64,000 nucleotides of DNA from Desulfofundulus kuznetsovii DSM 6115. GTDB taxonomy: Bacteria > Bacillota > Desulfotomaculia > Desulfotomaculales > Desulfovirgulaceae. Where the stretch lies: contig NC_015573.1 of the NCBI RefSeq assembly GCF_000214705.1, positions 136,501 to 200,500 on the forward strand, read 5' to 3'. Position 1 is the first letter of the stretch. Each line of letters opens with the position of its first letter. Shown in pieces: positions 53,252-64,000 of this stretch. The notes beneath the pieces are model-generated. The model saw only the letters and a list, made by a program, of their open reading frames with translations. It searched no databases and was not told the origin of the DNA. The position numbers and the translations under genes were made by a program.

Positions 53252-54298
53252 ATGGCAGATAAATTTTCCGTGGAAACCTTGACTAAATTTTGCCGGGAAC
53301 TCCTGGTAGCTGCCGGCGTGCCCGAAGGGGATGCGGATGTAGTTACCGATGTATTAATCGATACCAGCCTGGAAGGCATTGATACCCACGGCATCAGCCG
53401 CCTGCCTATTTACCTTTCCCGTGTTAGAAACGGGCGGATCAATGCCCGGCCGCGGATTACCGTGGAAAGGTCGGGAGCCGTGGCCGTCGTAGACGGGGAC
53501 AACGGCCTGGGGCAGCTGGTGGCCGTACGTTCCATGGAGGTGGCCATTGGTTTGGCGGCGGAATACGGCGTAGGGTTTGTGGCCACCAAACACAGCAACC
53601 ATTTCGGTGCCGCCTCCTATTACTGTAAGATGGCCGCCCGGCGGCAAATGGTAGGCATGGCCTTTTCCAACACCCCTCCCGGAATTCCTCCCTGGGGTGG
53701 CAGGCGGCCTTATTTCGGCACCAACCCCATTGCCTTTGCCTTTCCTACGGACAAGCACCCGGTGGTGGTGGACATGTCCTCTTCCACCGTGGCCCGGGGG
53801 AACATCATCCTGGCGGCCAAGGAAGGGCGGGAGATTCCCCCCGGTTGGGCCATCGATGCCGACGGGCGGCCCACCACTGACCCCAAAAAGGCGCTGGAAG
53901 GAGCGGTCCTGCCGGTGGGTGGCGCCAAAGGGTACGCCCTGGCCCTGGCCGTGGAAGTGATGTCGGGAATCATTTCCGGCTCGGCTTACGGGCCCGAAGT
54001 GGGCTGGATTTATGACGAAAGCCTGAAGCCCGTGAACATCGGCCACAGCTTTATCGCCATCGATGTGTCCCGCCTGATGCCGGTGGAAACCTTCCATGAG
54101 CGGATGGCTGATATGATCCGCGGTATTAAGGCCGTGCCTTTGGCCGAAGGGTTTGAGCGCATTTTGATCCCTGGCGAAAGGCGGCAGATGAAAGCCGACG
54201 AGAGGTTAACAGGCGGTATCCCGGTAAGCGAGAACCTGCTCAAGGAGTTTAACGAGCTGGCAGGAGAACTGGGTGTACAGCCTCTGGAGGCATGTTAA
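53252..54298 (+). CDS. Malate/L-lactate/sulfolactate dehydrogenase family (Ldh2; ComC-like)
   Basis: The 348-residue enzyme belongs to the type 2 malate/L-lactate dehydrogenase family, unrelated to the classical LDH fold. Visible are TSLEGIDTHGISRLPIYLSRV, KHSNHFGAASYY (catalytic His) and GTNPIAFAFP with VVVDMSSSTVARG. ATG 53252 lies 13 bases after the SerA-like gene, so they form an operon. ComC makes or oxidises (R)-sulfolactate; the pair SlcC + ComC converts one enantiomer to the other through sulfopyruvate. Malate, ureidoglycolate or lactate are alternative substrates. Confidence 0.87.
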   Translation: MADKFSVETLTKFCRELLVAAGVPEGDADVVTDVLIDTSLEGIDTHGISRLPIYLSRVRNGRINARPRITVERSGAVAVVDGDNGLGQLVAVRSMEVAIGLAAEYGVGFVATKHSNHFGAASYYCKMAARRQMVGMAFSNTPPGIPPWGGRRPYFGTNPIAFAFPTDKHPVVVDMSSSTVARGNIILAAKEGREIPPGWAIDADGRPTTDPKKALEGAVLPVGGAKGYALALAVEVMSGIISGSAYGPEVGWIYDESLKPVNIGHSFIAIDVSRLMPVETFHERMADMIRGIKAVPLAEGFERILIPGERRQMKADERLTGGIPVSENLLKEFNELAGELGVQPLEAC

Positions 54299-54300
54299 AT

Positions 54301-54349
54301 ATTCAGTAAAACCGTTATGAGGAGGATGCGGCGCTGTCCGGAGTAAACG
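54301..54349. mobile_element. Solo left end of family B element
   Basis: Bases 54302-54349 (TTCAGTAAAACCG ... GATGCGGCGCTGTCCGGAG) match the left end of the 57131-57425 element. No right end is present. Confidence 0.7.
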
Positions 54350-54379
54350 ACAGGGCCTGCTCTTTTAAATATTTGTACG

Positions 54380-54406: not shown

Positions 54407-54593
54407 ATTTTTAGCTCTCAGATTTTGAAAGTAGGTTCGTTTATACTTTTTCGTGCCATGCCTGTACTCGGGCTAAGAAATGGGATTTTAATTCCTGTAG
54501 CCGCCTTTAAAGGTTTGATTTTTGAAATATGTACGTTACTGGTGCGGTTCAAAATGCCTAAAAAATTAAAAAAGTATGAAGTTTAGGTTCCAA

Positions 54594-54791
54594 TTTCGCT
54601 AGCTTAGTGAAAAAACGCAAAAATAGTGTGAACAGATAATATTATAATCAAAAAAATATTGCAAAACACCGGTTCCTTTGTTATAATGGCAGTGCCCTGT
54701 AAATTATAGCGAAAATATGTACAATAATTATTGAAACATGAGAAAATAATAGAATCATTAGATTGTGCTAAATTTAACAAATTCGCTATAA
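54594..54791 (+). promoter_or_regulatory. Promoter and leader of the cytochrome b / HdrD operon
   Basis: TTGCAA (54659-54664), a 17-base spacer and TATAAT (54682-54687) form a near-consensus sigma-A promoter. GCGAAAATAT follows at 54709. The TTATAGCGAA at 54704-54713 is exactly inverted at 54782-54791, and another TTTCGCTA lies upstream at 54594. The AT-rich leader is over 150 bases long. The same promoter and motif occur before the HdrA fusion gene. Confidence 0.75.
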
Positions 54792-54889
54792 GGCAGGTGA
54801 CGTATAAGATTAAGGTTATATGATTGAGGGTTAACAGGAGCAGGAAAAATTATACGGTTAATCCTGACTTTTTTAAAGGAGGGTCACTT

Positions 54890-55552
54890 GTGGATTTCGG
54901 GCATTATTTAATTGCCGGGGTTATGCCCTATGTCGCTGTTGCTTTTTTTGCTTTCGGTTTAGGGTATAGGATCGTCTACTGGTCTAAAGCCCCCATACAC
55001 CTGCACTGGGAACTGTTTCCTTACCCTCATACCGTGCCAGATCAGTTGAAAGAAATGTTAACCGAAGTTTTTACCCTGCGCAGCCTGTATCTTTTTAACC
55101 GTAAGTTCTGGCTTCCTTCGCTGATGATGCACTGGGGTTTCTATTTTGTCGTTAGTTGGCTGGTTGTTTTACTTTTGGGCTTTTCGTTTGCCCCTTACGT
55201 GGGTACGACCGGGGGGGTTTTGGCCCTTGTCGGTTCATTCTCACTGTTTTCACTACGCCTTTTGGCTGGCGAGGTGCGGAAAATATCGGTTCCGGTTGAA
55301 TATTTCAACCTTATTTTCATATTTCTGCTTGCTTTAAGCAGTTTGCTTACCGGCTTTTTGGCTGACTTCCAGGTCAGGTACTATCTTCTGAGCTTGCTAA
55401 CCCTTAAACCCGCGCTATCTATTGCAGCTGGTTACCTGATACCGTTATTGTTGTTTGAGTTGTTCCTGATCTATATTCCCTTTACGCGTATGGCCCACTT
55501 TGCGGTCAAGTTCTTTACCTATCACAAGATTAAATGGGGTGAGCTTCACTGA
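54890..55552 (+). CDS. NarI-like (respiratory nitrate reductase gamma type) cytochrome b membrane subunit
   Basis: The 220-residue membrane protein has five or so hydrophobic segments and His residues in FGHYL, HLHWELF and MMHWGFYF that could bind heme b. This is the fold of NarI, DsrM, HdrE and TmcC, which exchange electrons with menaquinone or methanophenazine. GTG 54890 follows AAAGGAGGG at 6 bases and gives the family's normal start. Its stop overlaps the HdrD-like start (TGATG). With that partner it should form a quinone-linked membrane complex. Confidence 0.85.
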   Translation: MDFGHYLIAGVMPYVAVAFFAFGLGYRIVYWSKAPIHLHWELFPYPHTVPDQLKEMLTEVFTLRSLYLFNRKFWLPSLMMHWGFYFVVSWLVVLLLGFSFAPYVGTTGGVLALVGSFSLFSLRLLAGEVRKISVPVEYFNLIFIFLLALSSLLTGFLADFQVRYYLLSLLTLKPALSIAAGYLIPLLLFELFLIYIPFTRMAHFAVKFFTYHKIKWGELH

Positions 55553-56943
55553 TGTGTGCCGTAGCAGCGCAAAAAGTATTTGATGACTATCGTGTCCTTC
55601 CGGATGAAGCGTTAAAGCCGGGTGAACCCCGGGTGGAAAAATTCCTGCAGGCCATGCGAAAGTCACTCCAGCAAAAGGAAAACTGGACCTTCTGGTTGCC
55701 CTATATCCTTTCCCTGGATACCTGCATGAAATGCGGCACCTGTGCCGAGGTCTGCCCGGTTTACCAGGCCACAGGGCGCAAGGAGATCTACCACCCGGTT
55801 TACCGTACCGACATGCTGCGGAAGATCTATAAGCGGTACTTTACCCTGCCGGGGAAACTCTTTCCCTGGCTGGTGGGGGCGGAAGACCTTACGGAAGAAA
55901 AACTCAACGCCCTGGCGGAAAACGTTTACCGGTGCACCATCTGCCGCCGCTGTTCTTACGTCTGCCCGGTGGCCATTGACAACGGGGTGATTGTGCGGGA
56001 GGCCAGGAAGATCCTTGACGCCATCGACATTGCACCGGACGAGCTGAAGCAGAAAGGCACCCGGCTCCAGTTGCAGGCCGGCAACGCCACCGGAATGCCT
56101 ACGGCGGCCTTCCTGGACATGGTGGAGTTCCTCGAGGATGAAATCGAAGAGACCAGAGGGTATCGAATTAAGATACCGGTGGATAAAGAGGGCGCCGAGT
56201 ACTTGCTCATGCACAATGCCGGTGATTACCTGGCCTTTGCCGAGACGGTAATGGGCGCCGCTGAAGTCATGCATGCGGCCGGTGTGGACTGGACCCTGAA
56301 CTCGCCGAATACAGGGGTTAACGACGCCGTCAACTACGGCGTGTTCTACAGCGACGTGGAATTTTCGGCCGTTATCAAGGCCCATGTAGAAACCGCCCGG
56401 AAATTGGGGATTAAAAAGCTGGTTGTCGGGGAGTGCGGGCATGCCTTCGAGGCGCTGAAGTACCTGATCCTGAGGCTGATCCCGCCCGAGGAGAGGCCCT
56501 TTGAAGTAATGAGCATCCTGGAGCTGGAGGACCAGTGGATCCGGGAAGGGCGCATTAAAGTTGACCCGCAGAAAAACCCGGAGCCGGTTACCTTCCATGA
56601 TTCGTGCAAGCTGGGCCGCCTGGGCGGAATGTTTGAAGAGCCCCGCCGGATCTTGAAGGCCTGCTGCCCCGATTTCCGCGAAATGACGCCCAACCGGGAA
56701 ATGAGCCTGTGCTGCGGCGGCGGCAGCGGCTTTGCCATCATGGAAAAGGGTGGTTTCCTGAAGTTCCGCATGGAAACCTACGGCAGGCTCAAGGCAGAGC
56801 AGCTTAAGGCCACGGGGGCCAAAGTCGTTGCCTGCGCCTGTTCCAACTGCAAGGCGCAGTTCCGGGAGATCATCAATTACCACAAGCTGCCCATGCGTTA
56901 TGCCGGCGTCAGCGAATTGCTGGCCAACGCCCTGGTACGCTAA
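55552..56943 (+). CDS. HdrD/TmcB-like (Fe-S) protein with two ferredoxin motifs and CCG domains
   Basis: The 463-residue protein has two 4Fe-4S motifs (CMKCGTCAEVCP near residue 58; CTICRRCSYVCP near 129) and two Cys-rich CCG-type regions (HDSCKLGRLGG near 352, CCGGGSG near 387, CACSNC near 428). The CCG domain binds the special 4Fe-4S cluster that cleaves disulfides in HdrB/HdrD. The first CCG region lacks a full double-Cys motif (VVGECGHAFE), so a non-canonical site is possible. ATG 55552 overlaps the cytochrome b stop. It would link menaquinone to a disulfide or to the HdrA proteins downstream. Confidence 0.88.
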   Translation: MCAVAAQKVFDDYRVLPDEALKPGEPRVEKFLQAMRKSLQQKENWTFWLPYILSLDTCMKCGTCAEVCPVYQATGRKEIYHPVYRTDMLRKIYKRYFTLPGKLFPWLVGAEDLTEEKLNALAENVYRCTICRRCSYVCPVAIDNGVIVREARKILDAIDIAPDELKQKGTRLQLQAGNATGMPTAAFLDMVEFLEDEIEETRGYRIKIPVDKEGAEYLLMHNAGDYLAFAETVMGAAEVMHAAGVDWTLNSPNTGVNDAVNYGVFYSDVEFSAVIKAHVETARKLGIKKLVVGECGHAFEALKYLILRLIPPEERPFEVMSILELEDQWIREGRIKVDPQKNPEPVTFHDSCKLGRLGGMFEEPRRILKACCPDFREMTPNREMSLCCGGGSGFAIMEKGGFLKFRMETYGRLKAEQLKATGAKVVACACSNCKAQFREIINYHKLPMRYAGVSELLANALVR

Positions 56944-56988
56944 AGGCAGGAGCGGTAAAGTAGACATCTATGACGCTTTCAGCGTCAC

Positions 56989-57036
56989 TGCCGTTTTGCA
57001 TACGGAAGCGAACGGAGCGAGTGCGTGCAAACGGCA
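56989..57036. repeat. Short inverted repeat after the HdrD-like gene
   Basis: TGCCGTTTTGCA (56989-57000) faces TGCAAACGGCA (57026-57036) around a GGAAGCGAACGGAGCGAG core. The right arm also occurs near 50610 (GCGTGCAAACGGCAGG). Confidence 0.6.
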
Positions 57037-57087
57037 GGCAATAGACGGATTAAGGCCGGCTGGTGCGTCGGCCTTTGCTAATTATGA

Positions 57088-57121
57088 ACCGGTGTGCGGT
57101 TGCAGCACGCCGGTTTTTTTG
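57088..57121 (+). terminator. Terminator of the cytochrome b / HdrD operon
   Basis: ACCGGTGTGC (57088-57097) pairs with GCACGCCGGT (57105-57114) with one G-T pair, followed by seven T. Confidence 0.8.
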
Positions 57122-57130
57122 GTGTAAGTA

Positions 57131-57425
57131 TTCAGTAAAGCCGCTAGGGGGGTGCGGCGCTGTCCGGAGCGAACGACTTGCGAAGCGCCGGTAACAGCAC
57201 CCGGTGAAGCGAGGCTGCTGGCTCGGCTCTCGAGGACGCCAAACGAAAGCAAATGGAAGAACACCTGCTGGTGACACATCGGGCAGTTTAATATGGTCGG
57301 GAGGTAATAGTTTCGATGGTAATCCGCAGAGAGCCAGAGCCGGCCCGAAGCGAACCGTGGTGCGCATCTTACGCGGAGCACTGGAGTGAGCGGGGACAGC
57401 GCCGCACCCAACCGGGTTCACTGAA
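57131..57425. mobile_element. MITE-like inverted-repeat element, family B (295 bp)
   Basis: The left end (57131 on, TTCAGTAAAGCCGC then GGGTGCGGCGCTGTCC) is repeated inverted at the right end (57394-57425), giving imperfect terminal inverted repeats of about 33 bp. No gene is encoded. Short or partial relatives lie at 42896, 47010 and 54301. Confidence 0.8.
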
Positions 57426-57537
57426 TGTTTACTTTTTGGTGATATTTGAGCGCCGTGATGAGAAGGGAATTGCGGGACGCGCCGCCTGACCCTGGAGGCT
57501 TCCAGTTTCTAAAATGTACATATGATAATTAATATCA

Positions 57538-57618
57538 GCGAAAATTTAACGGAATATAGTTGAAAACCTCTCCTCCCTCTGTTATAATGGGATTACCAAT
57601 TAGTCCTGGCGAAAACAT
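57538..57618 (+). promoter_or_regulatory. Promoter and leader of the HdrA fusion gene
   Basis: TTGAAA (57560-57565), a 17-base spacer and TATAAT (57583-57588) form a near-consensus promoter. GCGAAAATTT (57538) lies upstream and GCGAAAACAT (57609-57618) 20 bases after the -10 box, at the same distance as in the 54.7 kb promoter. Confidence 0.75.
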
Positions 57619-57711
57619 CACTAAAAATTCTTGAAGGCATAAGTAAATCTTATCATTAGTTTTTCACTTCCACTTAAAAGAGCTAATCCAGGTCAAGGCG
57701 GGTGTGGTCCG

Positions 57712-60700
57712 GTGAAGCAAAATAACGGAGTTTCCGGTTCGGTACTGGTGGTTGGCGCCGGGATCAGCGGCATGCAATCGGCCCTGGACCTGGCCGAAAG
57801 CGGCTTTCGGGTTTATCTGGCCGATGAGAAACCGGCCATCGGCGGCACCATGGTCAGGCTGGATAAAACCTTTCCCACCAACGATTGCGCCATGTGTATC
57901 GTTTCCCCCAAGCTGGTGGATACGGGAAGGCACCTGAACATTGAAATCCTTACCAATACCAGCTTGACGGCCCTTCACGGAGAGGCAGGCAATTTTCGTG
58001 CCATATTAAAACAAAAGGCCCGCTACGTGGACCTTTCGAAATGCACCGGCTGCGGTGAATGTGCCCGGGTGTGCCCGGTGGAGGTGGACAATGAATTTGA
58101 CGCCGGCCTGGGCAACCGCAAGGCCATTTATAAACTTTTTCCCCAGGCTACGCCCAGCGCTTACGCCATCGACAAACGGGGTATTTCTCCCTGCCGCGCG
58201 GCCTGCCCCGCCGGGGTTAACGTGCAGGGGTACGTGCAGTTGATTAAAGCCGGGAAGTATACCGAGGCATGGCAGACCATTTACCGCGACAATCCCTTCC
58301 CGGCCATTTGCGGTCGGGTTTGCACCCATCCCTGCCAGTCCGCCTGCCACCGGGCAGGCGTGGACGGGGCGGTAAATATCAGGGCCTTGAAGCGCTTTGC
58401 CGCCGACCAGGCCTATCAGGACCTTGATGCCCTCCCCCTGCCCGGGGTGGAAGAGCCCCGGGGCAAAAAGGTGGCCGTGGTGGGCGCCGGTCCGGCCGGT
58501 CTTTCGGCCGCCTATCAACTGGTCAAGAAAGGTTACGGCGTGACTGTTTTTGAGGCGCTGCCCGTGGCCGGGGGTATGATGCGGGTGGGCATCCCCGAGT
58601 ACCGCCTGCCGAAGAAGTGGGTCGACCTGGAGGTGGATCTGCTTTCCCGGCTGGGGGTGGAATTTAAATTCAATACCCGGTTGGGGAGGGACATCACCCT
58701 GGAAAGCCTGCGGCAGGGTTACGAAGCCGTTTTTCTCGCCGTGGGAGCCCACAGGAGCAGTACACCGGGGGTGCCCGGGGAGGACCTGCCGGGGGTGGAG
58801 CAGGGGATATCTTTCCTGCGCCGGGTGGCCCTGGGCGAGCCGGTGACCGTCGGGCGGCGGGTGGCCGTAATCGGCGGGGGCAACACGGCCATGGACTGTG
58901 CCCGTACAGCCGTGCGGCTTGGTGCGGGGGAGGTCTATATAGTTTACCGCCGTTCCGAGGCGGAAATTACCGCCCTCCCCGAGGAAATAGCCGCGGCTAA
59001 GGAAGAAGGCATCCAGTTTATCATGTTGACCAGCCCCGTGCGTTTCATCGGCGAAGAGGGCAGGCTGGTCAGGATAGAATGCGTGAAAAACCGGCTGGAA
59101 CATGCCCGGGACGGTGGTCGTCCCCGCCCGGTGCCCGTGGAGGGCAGCGAGTTTACCCTGGACGTGGATATGGTCATCCTGGCCACAGGGCAACAGCCGG
59201 ATCTCTCCTGCTTAAATGGCAGCATCCCGGCAGGCAACACCATTCCTGCCGATCCCGATACCCTGGCCACCGGCATCCCCGGAGTGTTTGCCGGGGGAGA
59301 TTGTGTCACCGGGCCGAAAACAGTGATCGATGCCATTGCCGCCGGCAAGGTAGCCGCTGAATCCATCCACCGCTATCTTTCCGGGCAGGATTTGAAAGAG
59401 GGGCGCCAGTTCCGGGTGCCGGAAGAAAAAATTGCCCCTTTGCGCCAGGCACCCCATGAAATACCCCGCTGTGAGCCCCGCCCCGTGATTCACCTGGACC
59501 CGCGGGAGCGAGTTAAGGGATTTGTGGAGGAAGCAGAGACCTATACCGCCGAAGAAGCGAAAAAAGAGGCAGAGCGCTGCCTGAACTGCGCCGTCTGTTC
59601 CGAGTGCCAGGAGTGTGTGCGGGTTTGCCTGGCCAAAGCCATCGATCACGAAATGCAGGATGAGGAACTGGAAGTAAATGTAGGGGCGGTGATCTTGAGC
59701 CCCGGCGGGGAGGTTTTTGACCCGGCAGGGCTGGCCTACTACGGCTATGGACGCTACCCCAACGTGGTCACCAGCATCCAGTTCGAGCGCATTTTAAGCG
59801 CTTCCGGACCCGACCAGGGCCATCTAGTGCGCCCCTCCGACGGAAAAGAGCCCCGGCGTATTGCCTGGATCCAGTGCGTGGGGTCCCGGAACCTGCGCCT
59901 GGGGCACGACTACTGTTCCTCGGTCTGCTGCATGTACGCCATCAAGGAGGCGGTAATTGCCAAGGAGCACAGCCACGGGCCCCTGGAGACCACCATCTTC
60001 TTCATGGATATGCGTACCTACGGCAAGGACTTTGAACGCTACTACCGCCGGGCGGAAGAAGAACACGGCGTGCGTTTTGTGCGCAGCCGCATCTATAACG
60101 TGGAAGAGGCGGACAATGGAAATCTGCGCATCCGCTACGTTTTGCCCGGCGGCCAGGTGCAGGAGGAAGAATTCGACCTGGTGGTCCTTTCCGTGGGCTT
60201 TACGGCCGGGGAAAAGGCCAGGGAGCTGGCCTCCCGGCTGGGAGTAGAAACTGATCCAGCGGGATTCTGCCGCTTTAATGAATTCAGCCCGGGGGTAACA
60301 TCGGTGCCGGGGATCTTTGCCGGCGGCGTTTTTGCCGGCCCCAAGGACATTCCGGAAACGGTGACCGAGGCCAGCGCCGCGGCGGGCTACGTTTCCCGGT
60401 TGTTGAGCGCCGCCCGGGGCAGCGAAACCCGGGTCAAGGAGTACCCCCCGGAAAGGCCGGTGCATAAACAGCCGCCCCGGGTGGGAGTGTTTGTCTGCCA
60501 CTGCGGCATCAACATCGGCAGCGTGGTACGGGTGCCCGAGGTGGTGGAGTACGCCAAACACCTGCCCGGTGTAGTCTACGCGAGGGAATTCCTCTTCACC
60601 TGCTCCCAGGATAGCGTAGAGGAAATTAAAAAGTGCATTCATGAGCACCGTTTGAACCGGGTGGTGGTGGCGTCGTGCACGCCGCGGACCCACGCGCCGC

Positions 60701-62139
60701 TGTTCCAGAACGTTTTGAGGGAAGCGGGGCTGAACCCCTACCTGTATGAACACGTGAACATCCGGGAGCACTCCTCCTGGGTGCACCGGGACCGGCCGAA
60801 AGAAGCCACGGAAAAGGCCAAGGACCTGGTGCGCATGGCTGTAGCAAAGGTGCGCCTGCTCACCCCCATCACCCAGACCTACACCGAGATCAACAAGGGT
60901 GCCCTGGTGGTGGGCGGGGGAGTGGCGGGCATGACGGCGGCCCTCTCCCTGGCGGAACAGGGCTTTCAAGTGAGCCTGGTGGAAAAGGAACGTGAGCTGG
61001 GCGGGAACGCCAGGTACCTCTACTACACCCTGCAGGGTTCGGACCCCCGGCAGTACTTGAACGAACTCATTGATAAAGTGCTCAACCACCCGTTGATCCA
61101 GGTGTTTACCGGGAGCCAGGTGGTGGAAGCCGGGGGTTACCCGGGGAACTACCACAGCCGCATCAAAACACCGGAAAAGGAACTGGAAATAAGCCACGGG
61201 GCGGTGGTTCTGGCCACGGGGGCCAGGGAAGCCCGGCCGCAGGAATACCTTTTAGGGCAGCATCCCCGGGTGATGACCCAGCGGGACCTGGAGGAACGCA
61301 TCCACCGGGGGGGAGTGCAGGGCCTCAACACGGTGGTCATGATCCAGTGCGTGGGATCGCGGGACGAGGAGCGGCCCTACTGCAGCCGGATCTGCTGCAG
61401 CCATGCCATTAAGAACGCCCTGAAGCTAAAGGAGCTGAACCCGCAGGCGAACATCTACATTCTCTACCGGGACATCCGGGTGTACGGGTTAAACGAGCAA
61501 TATTACACGCAGGCGCGGCAGAAGGGGATTATCTTCATCCGTTACGACCTGGGGAAAAAGCCGGAAGTGGAAGCGGCGGGCGAGGGCCTGGTGGTGAGGG
61601 CAGTGGACCACATTCTGGGGGTGGAACTGGCCATCGAGCCGGACGTGCTGGCCTTGAGTACGGGCGTGGTGCCCGGGGAGGACAACGGCAGGCTGAGCCA
61701 GCTGTTCAAGGTGCCTTTGAACAGCGACGGGTTCTTTTTGGAAGCGCACATGAAGCTGCGGCCGGTGGACTTTGCGGCGGAAGGGTTATACCTGTGCGGC
61801 CTGGCCCACTCGCCCAAGCTGGTGGGGGAAAGCATCACCCAGGCCAATGCGGCGGCCATGCGGGCGGTGACGCTGCTGGCCAGGGACAGGTTGGCCTACG
61901 TGGCCATCACCGCCACCGTCAACCCGCGGCGCTGCGTAGCCTGCGGGGTTTGCGTACAGGTATGCGACTACCAGGCCCGGAGCATAGACCCCTTGCGGCG
62001 GGTGGCCGATGTAAACGAGGCTCTGTGCCAGGGGTGCGGGGCCTGCGTGGCCGCCTGTCCCAACGGTGCTTCCCAGCAGAAGGGGTTTGAAAAGGCCCAG
62101 CTCCTGGCCATGCTGGAGGCGGCCCTGGAAGCGGTGTAG
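57712..62139 (+). CDS. HdrA-GltD-HdrA fusion flavoprotein
   Basis: The 1475-residue protein begins as an HdrA (VVGAGISGMQSALDL; FPTNDCAMCIVSPK; CTGCGECARVCP near residue 110). Where the second ferredoxin cluster should follow, a GltD/NfnB-like module is inserted (about 159-620: CRAACPAGVNVQGY, VAVVGAGPAGLSAAY, VAVIGGGNTAMDCA, GVFAGGDCVTGP). HdrA then resumes with CLNCAVCSECQECVRVC and RIAWIQCVGSRN. A second HdrA part starts near 924 (VFVCHCGINIG; VVGGGVAGMTAAL near 1064) and ends with two ferredoxin motifs near 1408 and 1440. It could bind three FAD and NAD(P)H and perform electron bifurcation. GTG 57712 has GGGTG upstream. Confidence 0.9.
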   Translation: MKQNNGVSGSVLVVGAGISGMQSALDLAESGFRVYLADEKPAIGGTMVRLDKTFPTNDCAMCIVSPKLVDTGRHLNIEILTNTSLTALHGEAGNFRAILKQKARYVDLSKCTGCGECARVCPVEVDNEFDAGLGNRKAIYKLFPQATPSAYAIDKRGISPCRAACPAGVNVQGYVQLIKAGKYTEAWQTIYRDNPFPAICGRVCTHPCQSACHRAGVDGAVNIRALKRFAADQAYQDLDALPLPGVEEPRGKKVAVVGAGPAGLSAAYQLVKKGYGVTVFEALPVAGGMMRVGIPEYRLPKKWVDLEVDLLSRLGVEFKFNTRLGRDITLESLRQGYEAVFLAVGAHRSSTPGVPGEDLPGVEQGISFLRRVALGEPVTVGRRVAVIGGGNTAMDCARTAVRLGAGEVYIVYRRSEAEITALPEEIAAAKEEGIQFIMLTSPVRFIGEEGRLVRIECVKNRLEHARDGGRPRPVPVEGSEFTLDVDMVILATGQQPDLSCLNGSIPAGNTIPADPDTLATGIPGVFAGGDCVTGPKTVIDAIAAGKVAAESIHRYLSGQDLKEGRQFRVPEEKIAPLRQAPHEIPRCEPRPVIHLDPRERVKGFVEEAETYTAEEAKKEAERCLNCAVCSECQECVRVCLAKAIDHEMQDEELEVNVGAVILSPGGEVFDPAGLAYYGYGRYPNVVTSIQFERILSASGPDQGHLVRPSDGKEPRRIAWIQCVGSRNLRLGHDYCSSVCCMYAIKEAVIAKEHSHGPLETTIFFMDMRTYGKDFERYYRRAEEEHGVRFVRSRIYNVEEADNGNLRIRYVLPGGQVQEEEFDLVVLSVGFTAGEKARELASRLGVETDPAGFCRFNEFSPGVTSVPGIFAGGVFAGPKDIPETVTEASAAAGYVSRLLSAARGSETRVKEYPPERPVHKQPPRVGVFVCHCGINIGSVVRVPEVVEYAKHLPGVVYAREFLFTCSQDSVEEIKKCIHEHRLNRVVVASCTPRTHAPLFQNVLREAGLNPYLYEHVNIREHSSWVHRDRPKEATEKAKDLVRMAVAKVRLLTPITQTYTEINKGALVVGGGVAGMTAALSLAEQGFQVSLVEKERELGGNARYLYYTLQGSDPRQYLNELIDKVLNHPLIQVFTGSQVVEAGGYPGNYHSRIKTPEKELEISHGAVVLATGAREARPQEYLLGQHPRVMTQRDLEERIHRGGVQGLNTVVMIQCVGSRDEERPYCSRICCSHAIKNALKLKELNPQANIYILYRDIRVYGLNEQYYTQARQKGIIFIRYDLGKKPEVEAAGEGLVVRAVDHILGVELAIEPDVLALSTGVVPGEDNGRLSQLFKVPLNSDGFFLEAHMKLRPVDFAAEGLYLCGLAHSPKLVGESITQANAAAMRAVTLLARDRLAYVAITATVNPRRCVACGVCVQVCDYQARSIDPLRRVADVNEALCQGCGACVAACPNGASQQKGFEKAQLLAMLEAALEAV

Positions 62140-62250: not shown

Positions 62251-62461
62251 AGCCTGTTTTGGCTCGGAAGCGAGCGACTTGAGCCAAGCGGCAAGCCAAA
62301 CTTAGCGAGGCGAAAAGCGAAGGCAGGCCCGAGGGCATGGATGCCCGAGGCCGGCAACTGAGGCAGGATGCCGAATTTGCCGGGAAGCCTGCCGGAGCTT
62401 TGAGCCGAGCATTAGTTTGGCCCGCGAGGCTCACCGGAGCGAGCGAGAGCCAAAACAGGCT
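62251..62461. mobile_element. MITE-like inverted-repeat element, family C (211 bp)
   Basis: AGCCTGTTTTGGCTC (62251-62265) is exactly inverted at 62447-62461. The interior is rich in GAGCGA/GCGAG-type short repeats and has no gene. It separates the HdrA fusion gene from the next hdrA; an AAGCGAGCGAC core recalls the repeat at 56989. Confidence 0.7.
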
Positions 62462-62521
62462 GGGTTGGAAAGTGGGGATAACTCAGGTTTAAGGCGATGT
62501 TTTAACAAGGAGGCAGCTACC

Positions 62522-64000
62522 GTGGCAACAAACAGCCAGCCAAGAGGCTCCGTGGTGGTTGTGGGTGCCGGCATCAGCGGGATGCAGTCGGCCCTGGACC
62601 TGGCCGAGGCGGGGTTTAAAGTCTACGTGGTGGAGCGGGGCCCCGCCATTGCCGGCCACATGTCCATGCTGGATAAAACCTTCCCCACCAACGATTGCTC
62701 CATGTGCATCCTTTCCCCCAAAGTGGCCGACCTGGGAGGCCATCACAATATCGAAGTGCTCACCCTGGCCGAGGTTACCGGAGTGAGCGGCGAGCCGGGC
62801 GACTTTACCGTTACCGTCCACAAACACCCCCGCTTTGTGGATTTAACCCGCTGTGTCAGCTGCGGCCGCTGCGAGCAGGTCTGCCCCCAGGAAGCGGCCG
62901 ACGACTTCAACCAGGGCCTGGGTGTGCGCAAGGCCATCTACAAACCCTATGCCCAGGCTTTTCCCAACGCCTATGTGGTGGATCCCGGCGCCTGCCTGCA
63001 GTGCGGCGCATGCGTGGAGAAATGCGCCCGCAAGGCCATTGATCACAATATGCGCGGGGAAGAATTGCAGATCCGGGCGGGGGCGGTGATCCTTTCCCCC
63101 GGCTTTGAGCTGTTCGATGCGGCTGTCCGGCCGGAGCTCGGTTACGGGCGCTTCCCCAACGTGGTTACCAGCCTGCAGTTTGAGCGGATCTTGAGCGCTT
63201 CGGGGCCATATGAAGGCCATCTGGTGCGGCCTTCCGACGGCAAAGAGCCCCGGCGCATCGCCTGGCTGCAGTGCGTGGGCTCCCGGGAGCCCCGTTCCGG
63301 GATCGATTACTGCTCGGCGGTGTGCTGCATGTACGCGACCAAGGAGGCCATCGTCGCCAAGGAACACACACCCGGGCTGGAAACAACCATCTTTTACATG
63401 GATATGCGGGCCTACGGCAAGGGCTTTGAACAGTATTACCGGCGGGCAAAAGACGAGCTGGGTGTACGCTACGTCCGCTGTGTAGTATCCGAAGTGAAGG
63501 AAATACCCGGCACCAGGAACCTGCTGCTGCGCTACCGCACCCCGGAAGGCATTTTCCGGGAGGAAGAGTTCGACATGGTGGTGCTGTCGGTGGGCATGCG
63601 CCCCGCCCGGGGAGCCCGGGAACTGGCCGCCGCGCTGGGGGTGGAGCTGAACCGGTTCGGTTTTTGCCGGAACGATCCGTTTAACCCGGTGGCTACCTCC
63701 AGGCCGGGGATCTTTGCCGACGGCGCCTTTGCCGGCCCCAAGGACATCCCCGAGACGGTGACCGAGGCCAGCGCCGCGGCGGGCTGCGTCTCCCGGTTGT
63801 TGAGCGCCGCCCGGGGCAGCGAAACCCGGGTCAAGGAGTACCCCCCGGAAAGGCCGGTACATAAAGAGCCGCCCCGGGTGGGAGTGTTTGTCTGCCACTG
63901 CGGCATCAACATCGGCAGCGTGGTACGGGTGCCCGAGGTGGTGGAGTACGCCAAACGCCTGCCGTGGGTGGTGCACGCCCAGGAGTTTCTCTTTGCCTGC
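62522..64000 (+). CDS. HdrA-like electron-transfer flavoprotein (3' end outside window)
   Basis: The open frame gives 493 residues up to the window edge: VVVVGAGISGMQSALDLAE (FAD), FPTNDCSMCILSPKVADLGGH, ferredoxin motifs CVSCGRCEQVCP (near 111) and CLQCGACVEKCARKAID (near 159), RIAWLQCVGSRE and CCMYATKEAIVAKEH, then VFVCHCGINIGSVV starting a second region. It resembles the upstream fusion protein without the GltD insert. GTG 62522 follows AAGGAGG at 8 bases. A stretch of about 210 bases (63757-63966) is nearly identical to the fusion gene, unlike its flanks. It probably works in the same complex. Confidence 0.9.
   Translation, partial: MATNSQPRGSVVVVGAGISGMQSALDLAEAGFKVYVVERGPAIAGHMSMLDKTFPTNDCSMCILSPKVADLGGHHNIEVLTLAEVTGVSGEPGDFTVTVHKHPRFVDLTRCVSCGRCEQVCPQEAADDFNQGLGVRKAIYKPYAQAFPNAYVVDPGACLQCGACVEKCARKAIDHNMRGEELQIRAGAVILSPGFELFDAAVRPELGYGRFPNVVTSLQFERILSASGPYEGHLVRPSDGKEPRRIAWLQCVGSREPRSGIDYCSAVCCMYATKEAIVAKEHTPGLETTIFYMDMRAYGKGFEQYYRRAKDELGVRYVRCVVSEVKEIPGTRNLLLRYRTPEGIFREEEFDMVVLSVGMRPARGARELAAALGVELNRFGFCRNDPFNPVATSRPGIFADGAFAGPKDIPETVTEASAAAGCVSRLLSAARGSETRVKEYPPERPVHKEPPRVGVFVCHCGINIGSVVRVPEVVEYAKRLPWVVHAQEFLFAC

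Follow-up and report, generated by a model that had tools for sequence, protein, structure and literature searches.

A rare bipartite DNA box ahead of three heterodisulfide reductase-type operons suggests a small regulon in Desulfofundulus kuznetsovii

In a 64,000-bp stretch of the Desulfofundulus kuznetsovii DSM 6115 genome (hereafter the window), two neighboring operons are preceded by similar promoters and by copies of a bipartite box of 27 bp, GCGAAA-N16-T(T/C)GAA, whose two half-sites have the same orientation and follow each other at a 22-bp step. The first operon, behind promoter P1, encodes a membrane cytochrome b subunit and an HdrD/DsrK-like iron-sulfur protein; the second, behind P2, opens with a fusion form of HdrA, a heterodisulfide reductase (Hdr) type subunit. 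One further box fronts an hdrC-hdrB-hdrA operon elsewhere in the genome. The conserved box is probably the site of one sequence-specific transcription factor acting on the P1, P2 and hdrCBA-Flx-type operons. A first-pass annotation, made from the letters of the window, had noticed the two promoters together with a repeated GCGAAA motif and had suggested common control; this observation holds but was understated. D. (Desulfotomaculum) kuznetsovii 17T has a genome of 3.6 Mb with 54.9% GC (PMC10907483). All genome-wide counts given below derive from pattern and profile searches of the single complete contig (3,601,386 bp), of which the window covers bases 136501-200500.

The promoter architecture is as first described, with two TTG(C/A)AA boxes, 17-base spacers and a common TATAATGG. 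P1 reads TTGCAA-17-TATAATGG (-35 at 54659, -10 at 54682) and P2 reads TTGAAA-17-TATAATGG (-35 at 57560, -10 at 57583). Both promoters carry the extended -10 element TGTTATAATGG, and these are the sole two TGTTATAATGG sites within the window. The GCGAAAA(T/C)AT elements reported 20-21 bases past the -10 box are also in place, with GCGAAAATAT at 54709 lying 21 bases 3' of the box in the P1 leader and GCGAAAACAT at 57609 lying 20 bases 3' of it in the P2 leader. Because an intrinsic terminator stands ahead of each promoter, P1 and P2 head separate transcription units (Table 1). The pattern TATAATN{17,25}GCGAAA has four matches genome-wide, P1 and P2 included, as compared to one for the reversed control; the remaining matches (L005, L006) were rejected, as their surroundings are not conserved and include no hdr gene.

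GCGAAA alone proves little, because it occurs 34 times in 64 kb, and neither this hexamer nor GCGAAAA (13 copies) was retained as the signal. Comparison with seven relatives revealed that the conserved unit is instead the bipartite box, the second half-site of which, TTGAA, lies 16 bases past each boxed GCGAAA at P1 and P2 and had been overlooked in the first-pass annotation. The box was defined from alignments of P1 from eight genomes and of P2 from seven, the relatives being D. australicus, D. thermosubterraneus, D. thermobenzoicus, Desulfovirgula thermocuniculi and further members; in these alignments, an A+T pattern precedes the second half-site. Among the additional GCGAAA copies that had been noted around the promoters, the one at 57538 holds up and shows strong conservation, whereas relatives lack those at 54594 and 54782, of which the latter in fact reads GCGAAT. 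The heptamer ATGTACA, put forward as a common leader element, had to be abandoned: it is present eight times in the window and is not conserved in relatives, P1 carries ATGTAAA or ATGTTAA in Desulfofundulus relatives, and the P2 copy at 57514 sits upstream of the -35 box, outside the leader.

The complete box is nearly unique to the operons in question. GCGAAA-N16-TTGAA has four matches in the entire genome, three of them at the P1/P2 locus. The longer pattern GCGAAAAYNTN12TTGAAR matches 15 times across nine family genomes, this locus accounting for 14, and its reversed control gave no match. Within the window, TTGAA follows the 34 GCGAAA copies three times at a 16-base gap and three times at all other gaps up to 59 combined, and resampling both intergenic regions with a Markov model produced a chance box in 0.1% of cases for each region and never in both (20,000 trials), both figures applying to a pattern picked after the sites had been seen. 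Given this post hoc choice, the independent evidence comes from the third operon, the box profile, conservation and expression. Searching the D. kuznetsovii genome with the profile returned four sites with E < 1e-3, all ahead of hdr operons, the next having an E-value of 0.9; the four sites were part of the training set, and the absence of other sites is not circular. Across the nine family genomes, all sites with E < 0.02 belong to the same four places. Other matches to the bipartite pattern (L055, L062) were discarded for want of conserved context and of an hdr gene nearby, as were profile matches in other families of the order (G059, G046, G039 and others), which showed no consistent hdr context; the match in G046 is near an hdrA gene, yet on the opposite strand and beside a terminator.

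The third operon emerged from a search for TAGCGAAAAT before other redox genes, which the first-pass annotation had recommended. The single further copy of TAGCGAAAAT in the genome lies ~50-60 bp ahead of the start of hdrC-hdrB-hdrA, 1.25 Mb away, and the search turned up this operon before the second half-site was recognized there: TCGAAA, at exactly the same 22-bp step. The bare 10-mer TAGCGAAAAT is not enriched (two genome matches as compared to four for the reversed control), and its matches matter because both precede hdr operons and both carry the second half-site. The hdrCBA genes are followed by MvhD-type, AsrA/HydB-like and AsrB/HydG-like genes, amounting to an Hdr-Flx-type set. All eight genomes with the cytochrome b/HdrD pair keep the hdrC box, with GTGAAA as first half in one of them, and it is kept even in Desulfovirgula, where HdrB is only 68% identical. 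Apart from the box, the hdrC promoter region bears no likeness to P1 or P2. As a separate observation, hdrA of this operon contains an in-frame TGA (CSA-TGA-II; L097:9196-11214, minus strand), and the Desulfovirgula hdrA is uninterrupted.

Boxes were found in eight of the nine family genomes, representing three genera. When the P1 region of the window is compared to relatives, the upstream and downstream flanks are 48-57% identical, the promoter 68-84% and the box 82-93%, and the 22-bp step between half-sites is the same in Desulfovirgula at both P1 and hdrC. In a screen of 113 genomes of the order, cytochrome b/HdrD orthologues reaching 83% identity or more were confined to eight genomes, the same eight that have boxes; the single family member lacking the pair has an hdrCB operon with no box there. 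P2 and the relatives' P1 each have a pair of boxes, the first over the -35 region and the other at ~+14 to +41, whose starts are 71-72 bp apart in Desulfofundulus. The upstream box at P1 of most Desulfofundulus relatives is the weaker one (GCAAAT-N16-TTGCAA or close) and ends in the -35 element, and the Desulfovirgula copy reads GCGAAA-N17-TTGAAA. Two other features of these regions may be mentioned. The P1 region and cytochrome b gene (54590-55552) diverge strongly from the relative G002 (84% protein identity), while the adjacent HdrD is 99.6% identical, a pattern ascribed to a local recombination event with a predicted junction upstream of P1 at ~54640. Moreover, P2 leaders contain a conserved inverted repeat, ATAAGTAAATCTTAT, directly 3' of box 3 (57638-57658), a looser form of which trails box 1 in P1 of relatives.

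Published proteomics provides independent but indirect support for the co-regulation of P1 and P2. The study reports raised abundance on lactate for Desku_0187-0192 and Desku_0185, with 0184 and 0186 undetected (PMC5770442). The annotations it lists for Desku_0187-0192 match the P2 operon gene by gene. As a gap of just 770 bp, largely mobile repeat, separates hdrD from Desku_0187, Desku_0185 is almost certainly a P1 gene, either hdrD or the cytochrome b gene beside it, the exception being if a pair of small open reading frames is annotated in between; its assignment to the P1 unit is by position only. The hdrCBA-Flx proteins receive no mention. In the paper, Desku_0187-0192 are called a lactate-induced "novel formate dehydrogenase complex", the catalytic domain being noted as lacking. 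This complex corresponds to the P2 operon itself; judged by its domains, however, it is of the HdrA/MvhD/HdrBC type with an NAD(P)H (GltD-like) module, and no catalytic formate dehydrogenase subunit is encoded. The box speaks for a partnership between this lactate-induced complex and cytochrome b/HdrD, a point that the authors of the study did not settle (PMC5770442). Considering the near genome-unique box, its conservation in three genera between flanks of ~50% identity, the third operon and these lactate data, the common control proposed in the first pass for the cytochrome b/HdrD and HdrA-fusion operons is supported, and co-regulation, extended to the third operon, is well supported. The joint function suggested alongside is made likely; the single regulator is what we infer.

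Direct half-sites 22 bp apart are separated by two helical turns, a geometry in which a dimer or subunit pair could contact one DNA face at both positions. Since P1 and P2 come close to the sigma-A consensus and have an extended -10, and the boxes lie at -35 and ~+14 to +41, the presumed DNA-binding protein would most likely be a repressor rather than an activator. It might act by occlusion or as a roadblock, possibly with looping between the two boxes, and, if the lactate response runs via the box, repression should be lifted during growth on lactate. More tentatively, a dedicated regulator of a kind not yet described, using two boxes that flank the polymerase site, may co-ordinate the membrane menaquinone-linked HdrD module and two soluble, probably electron-bifurcating Hdr complexes as one substrate-switched electron-transfer unit.

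What emerges looks like a small regulon for Hdr-type complexes, of an ordinary kind but with a new motif. The Rex and HcpR regulons of sulfate reducers, found by phylogenetic footprinting, are each governed by a single factor through a shared operator. Like these, the Hdr set has one conserved motif ahead of several redox operons, beside sigma-A promoters and present or absent together with the operons; unlike them, it has a non-palindromic direct repeat of 22-bp step and four sites per genome. In repeat step and -35 overlap, the Hdr box resembles AraC/XylS operators (araI1-I2, Pm), direct repeats of ~21 bp whose promoter-proximal half overlaps the -35 box. An AraC-type regulator is nevertheless excluded, because the genome encodes no AraC-type protein (0 PF12833 matches in the complete genome, 8 of 8 relatives positive). 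The Spo0A box, TGTCGAA, shares the CGAA core, and one relative has TGTCGAA itself at a site near hdrC, whereas the Hdr core is AGCGAAA or GGCGAAA with a second half-site 22 bp on. How Gram-positive sulfate reducers regulate their energy metabolism has hardly been studied, and a search of open-access papers turned up no motif described for an Hdr-type operon in this group. The box represents a concrete, testable link among three operons whose products are usually treated apart.

Several explanations other than a shared transcription factor have to be weighed. The box might be the promoter of an alternative sigma factor, for example of the extracytoplasmic function (ECF) type, with GCGAAA as -35 and T(T/C)GAA as -10, so that each operon would have a housekeeping and a regulated promoter. 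The fixed 16-bp gap is a spacing common among promoters, region-4 sigma domains gave at least five good matches in the genome (PF08281; a necessary condition only), and the second element at hdrC of Desulfofundulus lies at a plausible distance from ribosome-binding site and ATG. At hdrC of Desulfovirgula, however, it directly adjoins the ribosome-binding site immediately ahead of the ATG, such that a start there would cut the leader; the conserved AT pattern right before the second half would be unusual in a spacer, and the half-sites are, to our knowledge, unlike ECF promoters. We regard this model as unlikely. Boxes 1 and 3 are transcribed and could instead belong to an RNA leader element, working via an RNA-binding protein or by folding. 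The P1 leader of the window does fold better than shuffled sequences (z -3.4), with TATAGCGAA of box 1 pairing with TTCGCTATA at 54782 (54707-54788), yet the hairpin partner is absent in relatives, restricting the pairing to the window, and for the P2 leader folding shows no advantage over shuffled sequences (z +1.2). An RNA element is highly improbable, given that the best conserved copy, box 2, precedes the promoter, that relatives do not share the P1 hairpin and that an Rfam search gave no match up to E 1. Hardly more credible is an origin of P1 and P2 by duplication of a single ancestral promoter region, with no shared regulator. The operons are 2.9 kb apart, and their promoters are 71% identical over 38 nt, with alignable leaders and a likeness spanning ~100 bp. 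Duplication would not account for a box that outlasts its flanks and recurs both upstream and downstream at P2, and it is weakened already by the box at the otherwise dissimilar hdrC promoter.

A further proposal keeps the shared transcription factor and names it as the NarL-type response regulator of a neighboring kinase/regulator/PAS operon (L063:9274-13081). This operon lies ~10 kb downstream, adjoins and converges with cytochrome b/hdrD in Desulfovirgula, occurs in all eight box genomes and is absent from the single family genome without a box. Against it, orthologues of 56-70% identity, with the same kinase, are found in ~31 genomes without recognizable boxes at hdr operons; YeiH-type transporter genes are adjacent in the genomes looked at, and no box precedes the operon itself. 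We consider this assignment quite unlikely. Returning to the shared transcription factor as such, several points speak against it. No regulator gene was identified for the Hdr box, no candidate being better than weak, and the location of the NarL-type operon is explained otherwise, since it is kept in 39 genomes, mostly without a box, and stands beside YeiH-type transporter genes in those looked at. In Desulfofundulus, the hdrC promoter is poor, and the promoter-to-box spacing differs. P1 of the window itself is without the upstream box, because its DNA is unrelated to that of the relatives upstream of ~54640. Finally, common descent of the P1 and P2 promoters could explain part of their likeness.

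Table 1. Promoters, boxes, terminators and genes of the P1/P2 locus (window coordinates)
Feature	Position	Strand	Basis
Intrinsic terminator before P1	54379..54404	+	11-bp stem, T tail; between Ldh_2-type dehydrogenase gene and P1
P1 promoter, TTGCAA-17-TATAAT, extended -10 (TGT preceding TATAAT)	54659..54687	+	68-84% identity in relatives from two genera, flanks ~50%
Hdr box 1, GCGAAA-N16-TTGAA in P1 leader, about +15 to +41	54709..54735	+	82-93% identity in relatives vs 48-57% in flanks
Membrane cytochrome b subunit (DsrM/NarI-like)	54890..55552	+	PF02665 7e-6; NF038037 DsrM 1.7e-9, far under cut-off
HdrD/DsrK-like iron-sulfur protein, CCG domain	55552..56943	+	PF02754, PF13183; NF045796 DsrK 1e-100, 337 bits, under 400-bit cut-off
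Intrinsic terminator 3' of hdrD	57086..57116	+	12-bp stem, T tail
Hdr box 2, GCGAAA-N16-TTGAA upstream of P2, second half-site within -35 box	57538..57564	+	90-97% identity, five relatives
P2 promoter, TTGAAA-17-TATAAT, extended -10	57560..57588	+	84-97% identity, five relatives
Hdr box 3, GCGAAA-N16-TTGAA in P2 leader, about +14 to +40	57609..57635	+	79-96% identity in relatives
HdrA fusion (HdrA with inserted GltD-like NAD(P)H:flavin domain and second HdrA module), 1475 aa, matches Desku_0187	57712..62139	+	PF07992, PF14691, NF040770, NF009410; PMC5770442
Second HdrA-type protein, partial in window, runs on to L063:3537	62417..64000	+	Domain searches

The genes behind P1 recall DsrMK of the DsrMKJOP complex in that a cytochrome b and an HdrD/DsrK-like protein share one operon. 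They differ in scoring under both curated cut-offs (37 of 300 bits for DsrM, 337 of 400 bits for DsrK) and in that no JOP genes follow, DsrK-like paralogues being located elsewhere. This HdrD has relatives in archaeal metagenome-assembled genomes, of Archaeoglobus (66% identity) and Candidatus Geocrenenecus (56%) (L205, L208), which are closer than the bacterial DsrK-like paralogues; transfer between domains is possible. In the interval between hdrD and P2, a ~310-bp repeat with matching ends (TATTCAGTAAA...TTCACTGAATG) occupies 57125-57433. Further copies are present at 54296-54351 (partial) and L097:3746-4054, with diverged ones elsewhere in the genome, and the site is empty in G002 and occupied in G003 and G005. 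By these features, the repeat classifies as an element like a miniature inverted-repeat transposable element, and as a mobile repeat it was rejected as a control site.

The P2 operon continues after the second HdrA with genes for MvhD, an FrhB-like protein, HdrC and HdrB. The MvhD-like gene contains an in-frame TGA (GG-TGA-HPGDC; L063:3633-4120), and this codon and that in hdrA of the third operon are both probably selenocysteine codons. The kinase/NarL-type regulator/PAS membrane sensor operon extends, together with its YeiH-type (PF03601) genes, over L063:9274-14862; its regulator has a single-copy orthologue in 39 of the 113 genomes of the order, and the operon perhaps represents a sulfate- or sulfite-related sensor module.

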